Shown here: in pieces, positions 4,651 to 11,798 of the stretch
How the letters are laid out: every line of letters starts with the position of its first letter
Numbering within the stretch: position 1 is the stretch's first letter
From: Chloroflexaceae bacterium
Lineage (GTDB): Bacteria > Chloroflexota > Chloroflexia > Chloroflexales > Chloroflexaceae
NCBI GenBank assembly: GCA_028282325.1
Contig: JANQID010000039.1
Coordinates: 1 to 48,823, forward strand
DNA: 48,823 nucleotides
Reading direction: 5' to 3'
Notes under the pieces: model-generated
What the model was told of the DNA's origin: nothing
The model's input: only the letters and a program-made list of their open reading frames with translations
The model's database searches: none
Translations under genes and position numbers: made by a program

Positions 4651-4659
4651 TGGTATCAT
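4651..4659 (+). promoter_or_regulatory. Extended -10 promoter of the phosphatase/DUF3090/kinase-like operon
   Basis: TGG-TATCAT is an extended -10. The first in-frame ATG of the downstream gene (4658) lies inside this box, so it cannot be the start of a transcript initiated here. The predicted start near 4666 leaves a short leader carrying AAAGGAGG (4677-4684) before the TTG at 4691. Confidence 0.5.
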
Positions 4660-4690
4660 GCCTGTACACCGTTCACCAAAGGAGGCGCTT

Positions 4691-5425
4691 TTGACGATAG
4701 TGCTTTTAATTCGCCACGGCGCAAATGATTGGGTTCATGGAAGGCTGGCTGGCTGGACGCCTGGAGTGCATTTGAACGACGAAGGCCGCCAGCAGGTGCG
4801 CGAGTTGAGCAAACGTCTGGGTGATTTGCCCATCGCGGCAGTCTATAGCAGCCCGCTTGAGCGCACTATCGAAACGGCGCAAGCGGTTGCGGCATCGCGT
4901 GATCTGCCTATCCGCGTTGTTGACGGCGTTGGCGAAGTGCGCTACGGCGAATGGCAGGGCGCTGAACTGAAGGAGCTATACAAACACCAACTCTGGCCAG
5001 GCGTGCAATTCTATCCCAGCGGAACGCGATTTCCATCCGGCGAGACGCTTGGCGAGGCTCAAACGCGGGCCGTCGCAGCTATCGATGCTCTGCGCGCCCA
5101 GCATCCCAATCAGATCATCGCTATAGTTTCGCATGCGGATATTATCAGGCTGGTTGTAGCATACTATATCGGTATGCACATCGATCTGTTTCAGCGATTG
5201 GCGATCAATACCGCTGCGGTGACCGTCGTCGCGTTTGAGGCAATGGGGCCGCGCCTGCTTGCCTATAACGATACCGGTTCGCTTGCGCACATACGGCTCA
5301 GGCCGGAACAATCGCCGCAATCCGAAACGGCGGCGGATGAACCAGAACCAGCGCCTTCGGATAATCATCACATAACGGACGCTGATCGTGTGATCTTGGA
5401 GGGAGAGCCGCAGGACGTTACGTGA
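4691..5425 (+). CDS. Histidine phosphatase of the MSMEG_4193 type (phosphoglycerate-mutase superfamily)
   Basis: A 244-residue histidine phosphatase superfamily member. The phospho-accepting histidine is in the RHG motif (Arg8-His9-Gly10). Arg58 (SSPLERTIETA), Glu82 (GEVRYGEW) and His148 (VSHADIIR) complete the usual active site. The TTG at 4691 is chosen because AAAGGAGG lies 6 bp upstream; the ATG 33 bp earlier lies within a -10 box. The last 45 residues are an acidic, Pro/Glu-rich tail outside the fold. The gene heads a tight three-gene unit with a DUF3090 protein and a PI-kinase-like protein. In Actinobacteria this trio defines the MSMEG_4193 family, a probable phosphomutase or phosphatase of unknown substrate. 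It should not be read as glycolytic phosphoglycerate mutase. Confidence 0.88.
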   Translation: MTIVLLIRHGANDWVHGRLAGWTPGVHLNDEGRQQVRELSKRLGDLPIAAVYSSPLERTIETAQAVAASRDLPIRVVDGVGEVRYGEWQGAELKELYKHQLWPGVQFYPSGTRFPSGETLGEAQTRAVAAIDALRAQHPNQIIAIVSHADIIRLVVAYYIGMHIDLFQRLAINTAAVTVVAFEAMGPRLLAYNDTGSLAHIRLRPEQSPQSETAADEPEPAPSDNHHITDADRVILEGEPQDVT

Positions 5426-5461
5426 GAGTGCAAGCTGCAAGATAATGGTCAGGGGATACGC

Positions 5462-5998
5462 ATGTCAAAGTTCACCTTTGATCTCGATTTAGCTGATCGC
5501 ATCACTGCTGGAGCAATTGGTCAACCTGGTCAGCGCGTATTCTATATGCAAGCCCACCGTGGTACTCAACTGGTTACGATGTTGGCTGAAAAAGAACAGA
5601 TCGCGTCGCTGGCTACTGAGCTTATGCGCTTACTCGATGATCTCGCCGAGCGTGATCCCCGTCTCGCTTCTTCGGACGATCCGGTGATTATGAATATGGA
5701 GCTTGAGGAACCGCTGGAGCCGGTGTTTCGCATTGCCCAGATGGGTTTGGGCTACGATGAGCAGCGCGATATCGTGGTATTGCTTATTCAAGGAGCTTCA
5801 GAAGAAGAAGAATCAGAAGCCGAACCAATGACGACGCGCATATCCGGCTCGCGGCTGCAAATGCGCGCATTGAGCAATCACTCGCTGAACGTGGTTGCGG
5901 CTGGGCGCCCAATCTGCGGCAATTGCGGTCGCCCAATTGATGCGGGCGGGCACTTTTGCCCGCAGCGCAATGGCCACGGACCGATTAGCAATCCATAG
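5462..5998 (+). CDS. DUF3090 zinc-ribbon protein of the three-gene module
   Basis: A 178-residue protein of unknown function matching the DUF3090 family. It shows the family's opening (FDLDLADRITAGAIG, then QPGQRVFYMQA), the middle segment EPVFRIAQMGLGYDE, and a C-terminal knuckle with Cys152, Cys155, His164 and Cys166 (CGNCGRPID, then GHFCPQRNGH). These four residues probably bind zinc. Residues 113-122 are a Glu-rich linker. The ATG at 5462 follows AGGGG. It starts 36 bp after the phosphatase and ends 9 bp before the kinase-like gene, so all three are probably co-transcribed. The family is known mainly from Actinobacteria and always travels with the two neighbours. No enzymatic role is established. 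Confidence 0.9.
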   Translation: MSKFTFDLDLADRITAGAIGQPGQRVFYMQAHRGTQLVTMLAEKEQIASLATELMRLLDDLAERDPRLASSDDPVIMNMELEEPLEPVFRIAQMGLGYDEQRDIVVLLIQGASEEEESEAEPMTTRISGSRLQMRALSNHSLNVVAAGRPICGNCGRPIDAGGHFCPQRNGHGPISNP

Positions 5999-6007
5999 CA
6001 GGTACGT

Positions 6008-6763
6008 ATGGAAGAGATGGAGACGAACGAGCAGCCGATCGAAATTGGTGCGGCGCGCATTCTCGATCTGTTGCTCAACGGCGATGTAAGCGTTGAGGGG
6101 ATGCTGCCGTACAGTAGCAACTATACGCTTCTCGCCTCTGTCGAACACGCCGGTCTGCGGGCGTTGGCCGTATACAAGCCCCGTCGTGGCGAACGACCGC
6201 TCTGGGATTTTGCACGCGGAACGCTCTATCAACGTGAAGTCGCCGCCTATCTGACCAGCGAGGCGTTGGGTTTTTCGCTGGTTCCGCCCACGGTTGTACG
6301 TGACGGGCCGTATGGTGTCGGCGCTTTACAGTTTTATGTCCACAATGATGAGCAATCGCATCTCCTCACGATGCAGCAAGAAGGCCACTATACTACGGCC
6401 ATTATGCAAGTCGCGCTCTTCGATTGCGTGATAAATAACGCGGATCGCAAGAGCGGCCACTGCCTCAAAGGCATTGACGGGCGAATCTGGGCCATTGACC
6501 ACGGTCTGACGTTTCATCACGAGGATAAGCTGCGCACGGTATTGTGGGATTTCGTTGGTCAACCGCTGCCCCCCGATTTGCAGCGGGCGCTCTGTGCGTT
6601 CCGCGAATCCCTGGAAAAGCGCGATTCTGTGGCGCAGGCGCTTGAAGAATTGTTGTCCCGGTATGAAATGAATGCGCTGTGCCATCGTCTCGATGTGTTG
6701 ATCGCTACGAATGCCTATCCATCGCCGGGGCCTGGTCCCAATATTCCCTGGCCGCCAATATAG
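6008..6763 (+). CDS. SCO1664-family PI3/PI4-kinase-like protein
   Basis: A 251-residue protein related to the phosphatidylinositol 3/4-kinase fold. The N-terminal lobe has LNGDVSVEGMLPYSSNYTLL (a glycine-rich loop equivalent), Lys57 (AVYKPRRGE) as the likely ATP-binding lysine, and Glu77 (YQREVAAY). The C-lobe has a catalytic-loop-like NNADRKSGH (143-151) and DHG (164-166) in the DFG position, followed by the family hallmark KLRTVLWDF. Chemistry is inferred as phosphotransfer; the substrate is unknown and lipid kinase activity should not be assumed. It is the third gene of the module. Pairing a kinase-like protein with a histidine phosphatase suggests opposing or sequential phosphate transfers. 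Confidence 0.87.
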   Translation: MEEMETNEQPIEIGAARILDLLLNGDVSVEGMLPYSSNYTLLASVEHAGLRALAVYKPRRGERPLWDFARGTLYQREVAAYLTSEALGFSLVPPTVVRDGPYGVGALQFYVHNDEQSHLLTMQQEGHYTTAIMQVALFDCVINNADRKSGHCLKGIDGRIWAIDHGLTFHHEDKLRTVLWDFVGQPLPPDLQRALCAFRESLEKRDSVAQALEELLSRYEMNALCHRLDVLIATNAYPSPGPGPNIPWPPI

Positions 6764-11072: not shown

Positions 11073-11105
11073 TTTTGCTGCGAATGCAATTGCTTGAGGG
11101 CAGCG

Positions 11106-11798
11106 ATGATACAGGTTCGAGTACGCTTTTTCGCCGGACATCGCGACATCATCGGTCATGCAGAGGTGACGCGAGAACTGGAGGCGGGCACAACCGTCGG
11201 AACGTTGTGGGAGCTTCTCACGGACGAGTATCCAGACCTAGCGCACTACGCCGGGCGTGTGCTCTTCGCGGTCAATCAGCAATTTTGCCAACCCGATGCC
11301 TTATTGCACGACGGCGACGAAGCGGCGTTTATTCCGCCCGTCAGCGGCGGGACGAACGCGCCCGTCGTCAATGACGCCTTCACGCCGTTTGCGATTACCG
11401 CCGCGCCGCTCGATCTCACTCCCCTGGTTGCGTGGGTGCAAACGCCCGGCGATGGGGCGGTGGTGACATTTGCCGGCGTCGTGCGCGATCAATTCGAGGA
11501 CCGGGCGACGGCGTTCCTAGTCTACGAGGCCTACGCCGAGATGGTCGTGCCGACGTTCTGCCAGATCGCCGACGAGGCGCGTGCGCGCTGGCTGGTCGGC
11601 AGAATCGCCGTTCATCATCGCGTCGGTCGGCTTGAGATCGGCGCGACGGCTGTGCTGGTAGTTGTAGCCGCGCCGCATCGCCAGCCAGCATTCGAGGCGG
11701 CGGCGTACATTATGGATCGTATCAAGGAGATCACGCCGATCTGGAAGCAGGAGCACTGGGCCGACGGCGACCGTGAATGGCGCGAACGAGTGGAGTAG
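11106..11798 (+). CDS. moaX: Fused molybdopterin synthase (MoaD-MoaE)
   Basis: A 230-residue fusion of both subunits of molybdopterin synthase, which adds two sulfurs to cyclic pyranopterin monophosphate. Residues 1-82 are a ubiquitin-like MoaD ending in PPVSGG (Gly81-Gly82). Residues 90-230 are MoaE, with GAVVTFAGVVRD, the central YEAYAEMV, HRVGRLEIG and the C-terminal KEITPIWKQEHW containing the active-site lysine region. In normal MoaD the terminal glycine must be free to carry the thiocarboxylate, so here it must be exposed by cleavage or used in an unusual way. The mycobacterial MoaX fusion is reported to be cut after Gly-Gly. The ATG at 11106 follows GAGGG. mutM begins 3 bp after the stop. 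Confidence 0.93.
   Translation: MIQVRVRFFAGHRDIIGHAEVTRELEAGTTVGTLWELLTDEYPDLAHYAGRVLFAVNQQFCQPDALLHDGDEAAFIPPVSGGTNAPVVNDAFTPFAITAAPLDLTPLVAWVQTPGDGAVVTFAGVVRDQFEDRATAFLVYEAYAEMVVPTFCQIADEARARWLVGRIAVHHRVGRLEIGATAVLVVVAAPHRQPAFEAAAYIMDRIKEITPIWKQEHWADGDREWRERVE

Follow-up and report, generated by a model that had tools for sequence, protein, structure and literature searches.

A three-gene unit encoding a histidine phosphatase, a DUF3090 protein and an SCO1664 family kinase-like protein lies in the 48,823-nucleotide stretch of Chloroflexaceae DNA analysed here (the window). Judged from its sequence, this trio probably works as a phosphorylation/dephosphorylation couple, and we tentatively suggest that phosphate may be put on and taken off an inositol lipid or a related inositol compound. 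The phosphate-transfer pathway proposed in the earlier note is plausible. The trio itself is the known TIGRFAM three-gene set (TIGR03848/TIGR03847/TIGR03843) and is not rare outside Actinobacteria. TIGRFAM notes on it also mention Chloroflexi, and we found no paper that names the three accessions together. New here are the predicted folds, the co-inheritance of the kinase and DUF3090, a swap of the phosphatase, an association of the kinase with Ino1, and Chloroflexota free of MshC; like the invariant catalytic residues and the gene order, the first four were observed or computed. The features of the locus are as follows.

4679-4685, + strand: Shine-Dalgarno-like AAGGAGG, five bases ahead of TTG 4691 (from sequence)

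4691-5425, + strand: branch-1 histidine phosphatase of the MSMEG_4193/Rv2135c family (TIGR03848), 244 aa (256 bits, curated NCBIfam cut-off 204; active-site residues)

5462-5998, + strand: DUF3090 protein (TIGR03847/PF11290), acidic, with a predicted PUR-like double sheet-and-helix domain and a C-terminal zinc knuckle (188 bits, curated NCBIfam cut-off 117; predicted model, conservation)

5915-5959, + strand: CxxC...HxC zinc knuckle of DUF3090, C152, C155, H164 and C166 (sequence, conservation)

6008-6763, + strand: SCO1664 family protein (TIGR03843), predicted minimal PI4K-type-II/Fam20-like kinase with the signature NNADRKxxH...DHG (280 bits, curated NCBIfam cut-off 172; predicted model, conservation)

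All three proteins scored above their curated cut-offs, so the match of the trio is far beyond chance, and these profile searches confirmed the family identities (MSMEG_4193, DUF3090 and SCO1664) given in the earlier note. The window shares the order, strand and tight spacing of the known trio, with the three genes adjacent and gaps of 36 bp (phosphatase to DUF3090) and 9 bp (DUF3090 to kinase), as previously given. It differs from the known trio in having no mshC or uppP neighbour, being flanked upstream by a divergent trpA and downstream on the same strand by moeA, then aroB. A frame downstream of moeA and aroB (11094-11798) resembles, by eye, a MoaD/ThiS-like then a MoaE-like domain, i.e., molybdopterin synthase parts in one protein. 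A sigma-70-type scan found no + strand promoter upstream of the trio, so control by one promoter, as claimed before, is read from the gene spacing. The window genome (4.6 Mb in 140 contigs) has one DUF3090 gene, and loci labelled Oscillochloris, Viridilinea (a member of Chloroflexales) and Chloroploca are among the nearest relatives of all three window proteins.

A minimal PI4K-type-II/Fam20 fold is predicted for the SCO1664 protein. Its model (68 relatives, mean pLDDT 92.3) matched PI4K-II alpha and beta best in VIA-align (Z 19.3, 3.6 Å over 227 residues), followed by Fam20 (Z 16.6), CtkA (14.0) and HipA (10.5). PI4K-II was also the top Foldseek match (1.5e-7), and a sequence profile matched PI4K-II beta at 4e-7; the Pfam PI3_PI4_kinase model (PF00454) remained below its gathering score for the window kinase (17.2 bits, cut-off 27.1). 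The window protein carries K57, NADRKSGH and DHG, and K57, E77, D146, R147, K148, H151 and D164 were invariant in 68/68 relatives. With PI4K type II and Fam20 it shares the predicted fold, the ATP-binding Lys, the helix-C Glu and the catalytic Asp, and the metal-binding Asp of PI4K type II is kept, as DHG for DNG. It differs from PI4K type II in its size of about 250 residues only, in DRKxxH for DRxxxN, and in the absence of the CCPCC palmitoylation motif. Five residues past the catalytic Asp, where PI4K-II usually has a metal-binding Asn, the family has His (H151) in 68/68, indicating that it is a separate branch of the PI4K fold. A defence-system reading of the kinase was set aside, PADLOC giving only a 20-bit match to PDC-M66A.

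Fam20 comes close behind PI4K-II, and protein and sugar kinases use this fold too, which argues against an inositol lipid as the substrate, as do H151 in place of the usual Asn and the absent CCPCC motif. The main rival is a protein phosphorylation switch, in which a Fam20/HipA/CtkA-like kinase would act on a protein (perhaps DUF3090, or a translation or cell-envelope factor), a His or Cys phosphatase would reverse the step, and DUF3090 would be substrate or adaptor. The fold held in common with Fam20, CtkA and HipA favours such a switch; against it, both fold and sequence profile come nearest to a lipid kinase, PI4K-II, and the switch does not predict the Ino1 association described below. On balance we regard the switch as somewhat unlikely, and further observations in its favour are given below.

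The most likely start of the phosphatase is TTG 4691 behind AAGGAGG, ATG 4658 merely giving the longest frame, and TTG 4691 reproduces the residue numbering of the earlier note exactly. Counted from this start, R8, H9, G10, R58, E82 and H148 are present, and every residue previously named for the other two proteins is likewise in place, so the claim of intact active sites in all three holds. PF00300 matched the phosphatase at 5e-50, and the RHG, second Arg, Glu and second His place it in branch 1 of the histidine phosphatase superfamily. From gene order, we take Rv2135c-Rv2134c-Rv2133c to be the trio of M. tuberculosis and Rv2135c to be its phosphatase. Rv2135c forms tetramers, occurs in membrane fractions and has weak acid phosphatase activity; it has no phosphoglycerate mutase activity and is poor on small phosphates, with a Km of about 10 mM (PMC3866925). 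The last property counts in favour of the protein switch. The lack of mutase activity speaks against a phosphomutase-type step in the metabolism of carbohydrates or thiols, which the TIGRFAM name "putative phosphomutase" in NCBIfam would suggest.

Such a step would also fit a link to thiol metabolism in Actinobacteria. A 412-residue cluster follows the trio in Actinomycetes loci, and from its size and position we presume it to be mshC. Chater's review notes the tight linkage of SCO1664 to mshC in Actinobacteria and its possible membership of an inositol/mycothiol network (PMC4255298). MshC was above cut-off in 0/131 Chloroflexota genomes, which shows that mycothiol is not required for the trio, rules out a mycothiol role for it in Chloroflexota, and also counts against the phosphomutase-type step, which we consider highly improbable. 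A 403-residue MshC-like protein, the best match in the window genome, was rejected as cysteinyl-tRNA synthetase, scoring 414 bits with the cysS model (cut-off 340) versus 376 with the mshC model (cut-off 485). The earlier view that the trio, having no mshC neighbour, has a role independent of mycothiol was thus upheld.

The distribution of the trio was surveyed in a phylum sample of 131 Chloroflexota genomes, unbiased towards full trios, and its surroundings in a separate set of loci; as these were picked for their resemblance to the window kinase, full trios are over-represented among them. The kinase family was found in 70/131 genomes and DUF3090 in 85/131. Comparing the two hit tables, with tests that ignore phylogeny, 66 genomes had both, four the kinase alone, 19 DUF3090 alone and 42 neither (odds ratio 36, Fisher p 5e-15); counted by family, the numbers were 26, 1, 5 and 16, respectively (p 1e-7). 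The kinase and DUF3090 genes were on different contigs or several kb apart in about 18/66 genomes, showing that their co-retention is independent of linkage. TIGR03848 was detected at E < 1e-40 in 39/131 genomes, and the histidine phosphatase stood beside the kinase and DUF3090 in only about 20 of the 66 having both. In several genomes of one family, it is located elsewhere, beside a rarA-like gene, and DUF3090 and the kinase stay together. The control genome of C. glutamicum gave the kinase and the phosphatase, with DUF3090 undetected. The idea that the three genes are inherited as a block is therefore right in part: it stands for the kinase and DUF3090 (66/70 kinase-bearing genomes, 26/27 families) and is weakened for the trio as a whole by the separated pairs, the frequently absent phosphatase neighbour and C. 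glutamicum.

The occurrence of the trio outside Actinobacteria was correctly noted before; as a surprise it did not stand, the trio being widespread in Chloroflexota and also present in Rokubacteria. The kinase was found in 38/79 genomes of a Rokubacteria sample taken around one Rokubacteria genome. For one Rokubacteria copy (L080), the closest relative of all three proteins was the same Acidimicrobiales locus (L057), which suggests transfer as a block. Pairwise distances are correlated among the three proteins (r 0.75-0.81), as a common species history would produce by itself, and the correlation was not counted as evidence.

Outside the trio, the gene-neighbourhood comparison of the loci found no neighbour gene common to different phyla. 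Recurrent neighbours, named by eye, look lineage-specific: rarA-like and homoserine-dehydrogenase-like genes in some Anaerolineae, a dnaK-like gene in one group, and tig-clpP-clpX-like genes beside one kinase. Conserved pathway neighbours were accordingly rejected as a functional clue. The portability of the trio, which keeps no constant metabolic neighbour from phylum to phylum, would again be in keeping with the protein switch. As separate observations, a rarA-like gene lies upstream of the full trio in L030, L042, L048, L055 and L069, and upstream of an unlinked trio phosphatase in several Chloroflexota genomes (L155-L160). Unlinked kinase genes in L096 (7084-7863) and L094 are divergent from a trigger-factor-like gene, with clpP-/clpX-like genes in L096. 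MSMEG_4192 is listed in a ClpC1 interactome (PMC10433963).

The phosphatase next to DUF3090 can be of another class. In six loci (L082-L086, L098), DUF3090 is directly followed by a Cys phosphatase of roughly 200 residues with a Cx5R motif, standing in for both the histidine phosphatase and the kinase, e.g., CMGGVGRTG, matching Pfam PTP-SAK at 4e-11 (L082:7580-8715, L083:6371-7506, L098:3583-4725). Five of these loci (L082-L086) represent five genomes of one Chloroflexota family, in which no kinase was detected, and L098 represents one further genome. In L034 and L038, one open frame runs from the phosphatase into DUF3090 without a stop, internal starts being possible. The swap and the read-through frames together indicate that DUF3090 is tied to a phosphatase partner. 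Dual-specificity-type Cys phosphatases (PTP-SAK) belong to a class often acting on phosphoproteins, and their replacing the histidine phosphatase beside DUF3090 is a further point for the protein switch. In L022 (6395-7450), the phosphatase frame runs into a partial second DUF3090-like domain, with a separate DUF3090 gene after it.

The DUF3090 model (pLDDT 89.6) is suggestive of a PUR-like fold plus a zinc knuckle. It matched PUR-alpha repeats I-II at Z 9.1 (3.4 Å over 112 residues; the best Z for unmatched models is usually 7-8) and the Whirly and MRP guide-RNA proteins at Z 5-6; the Foldseek E value was only 8e-3. The predicted likeness to PUR-alpha and Whirly lies in the double sheet-and-helix arrangement (Z about 9 over 110 residues), and the differences lie in the acidity of DUF3090, its zinc knuckle and an identity of 6-10% in the structural alignments. 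A likeness to PH/PTB domains was dismissed as too weak (Z 3-5 in the fold search). The three zinc cysteines were kept in 71/76 members and His164 in 66/76. These matches would allow a nucleic-acid modification unit, in which DUF3090, as a PUR/Whirly-like ssDNA/RNA binder with a zinc knuckle, presents nucleic acid to the kinase and the phosphatase. However, the family is acidic (pI < 6 in 72/76 members, median 5.0); its loops are negative and it lacks a strongly basic sheet. Nucleic-acid binding is therefore not the reading we prefer, and together with the weak Foldseek value and the small excess over the usual Z, the acidity makes such a unit improbable.

An inositol substrate was approached through Ino1, scored by PF01658; the associations follow lineages and genome size, both of which the tests ignore. 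Ino1 was found in 65/68 kinase-bearing versus 47/90 kinase-free Actinomycetota genomes (p 3e-10), many of the latter being small, and in 37/38 versus 31/41 genomes of the Rokubacteria sample (p 0.005). The corresponding values in Chloroflexota were 65/70 and 59/61, and since Ino1 is near-universal there (124/131), it does not discriminate between kinase-bearing and kinase-free genomes. An apparent rarity of Ino1 by PF07994 (4/131) was discarded as a false-negative result, since this model does not detect C. glutamicum Ino1 either. Ino1 of the window genome is encoded on contig C69.

One full-trio Chloroflexota genome of 1.1 Mb (G059), read nearly whole and in pieces, encodes homologues of PIP synthase and PimA, together with Ino1 and a PHP-type (CehA/McbA-like) hydrolase, on one strand of one contig (L254:5971-12055). 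The PIP synthase homologue, which adjoins Ino1, is the only ORF of G059 with a CDP-alcohol phosphotransferase motif; its best solved relatives are PIP synthases (3e-22 to 5d91), and its NCBIfam score is below cut-off (133 versus 170 bits). The PimA homologue matched at 4e-58. At least one trio-bearing Chloroflexota genome thus has genes apparently sufficient for PI phosphate and PI mannoside. The PIP phosphatase of bacterial PI synthesis is as yet unidentified (PMC4634129). Since genomes that carry Ino1 and lack the trio are common, the trio cannot fill this role in general; the PHP-type hydrolase of the G059 cluster is a candidate rival for it.

Bringing these lines together, we infer the catalytic activities, the substrate and the role of DUF3090 as follows. 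SCO1664 would be an ATP-dependent kinase of PI4K-II/Fam20 fold whose substrate contains inositol and is most likely phosphatidylinositol or a derived lipid; the histidine phosphatase would take this phosphate off again; and DUF3090, with its PUR-like domain and zinc knuckle, would be a scaffold or targeting subunit that keeps the phosphatase and the kinase together or tethers them to the substrate. In favour of this reading are PI4K-II as the best fold and profile match, the invariant catalytic residues, the kinase–Ino1 association, the PIP synthase/Ino1/PimA contig of G059, the co-occurrence of DUF3090 and the kinase even when unlinked, the frames shared by phosphatase and DUF3090, and the Cx5R swap. 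It also draws on Rv2135c as a phosphatase without mutase activity in membrane fractions, on the missing PIP phosphatase, and on PI3P, which is reportedly present in mycobacteria (Morita 2010). Against it stand, besides the kinase features named above, Ino1 at its ceiling in Chloroflexota, associations that follow lineage and genome size, no recognisable PI-synthesis gene next to the trio in any of the loci read, Ino1 genomes without the trio, and the rival PHP-type hydrolase. In its fullest form, a bacterial phosphoinositide cycle common to Actinomycetota, Chloroflexota and Rokubacteria, with SCO1664 as PI kinase, a His- or Cys-type phosphatase turning the product over and DUF3090 as zinc scaffold, the proposal is speculative and, in our estimate, unlikely to hold throughout.

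The trio is conserved across several phyla, mycobacteria and Streptomyces included. Should inositol lipids be its target, the trio would represent a kinase/phosphatase pair for phosphoinositides in bacteria and would provide candidates for enzymes missing in bacterial PI metabolism, and the mycothiol-free Chloroflexota copies offer a clean system for testing the inositol reading.
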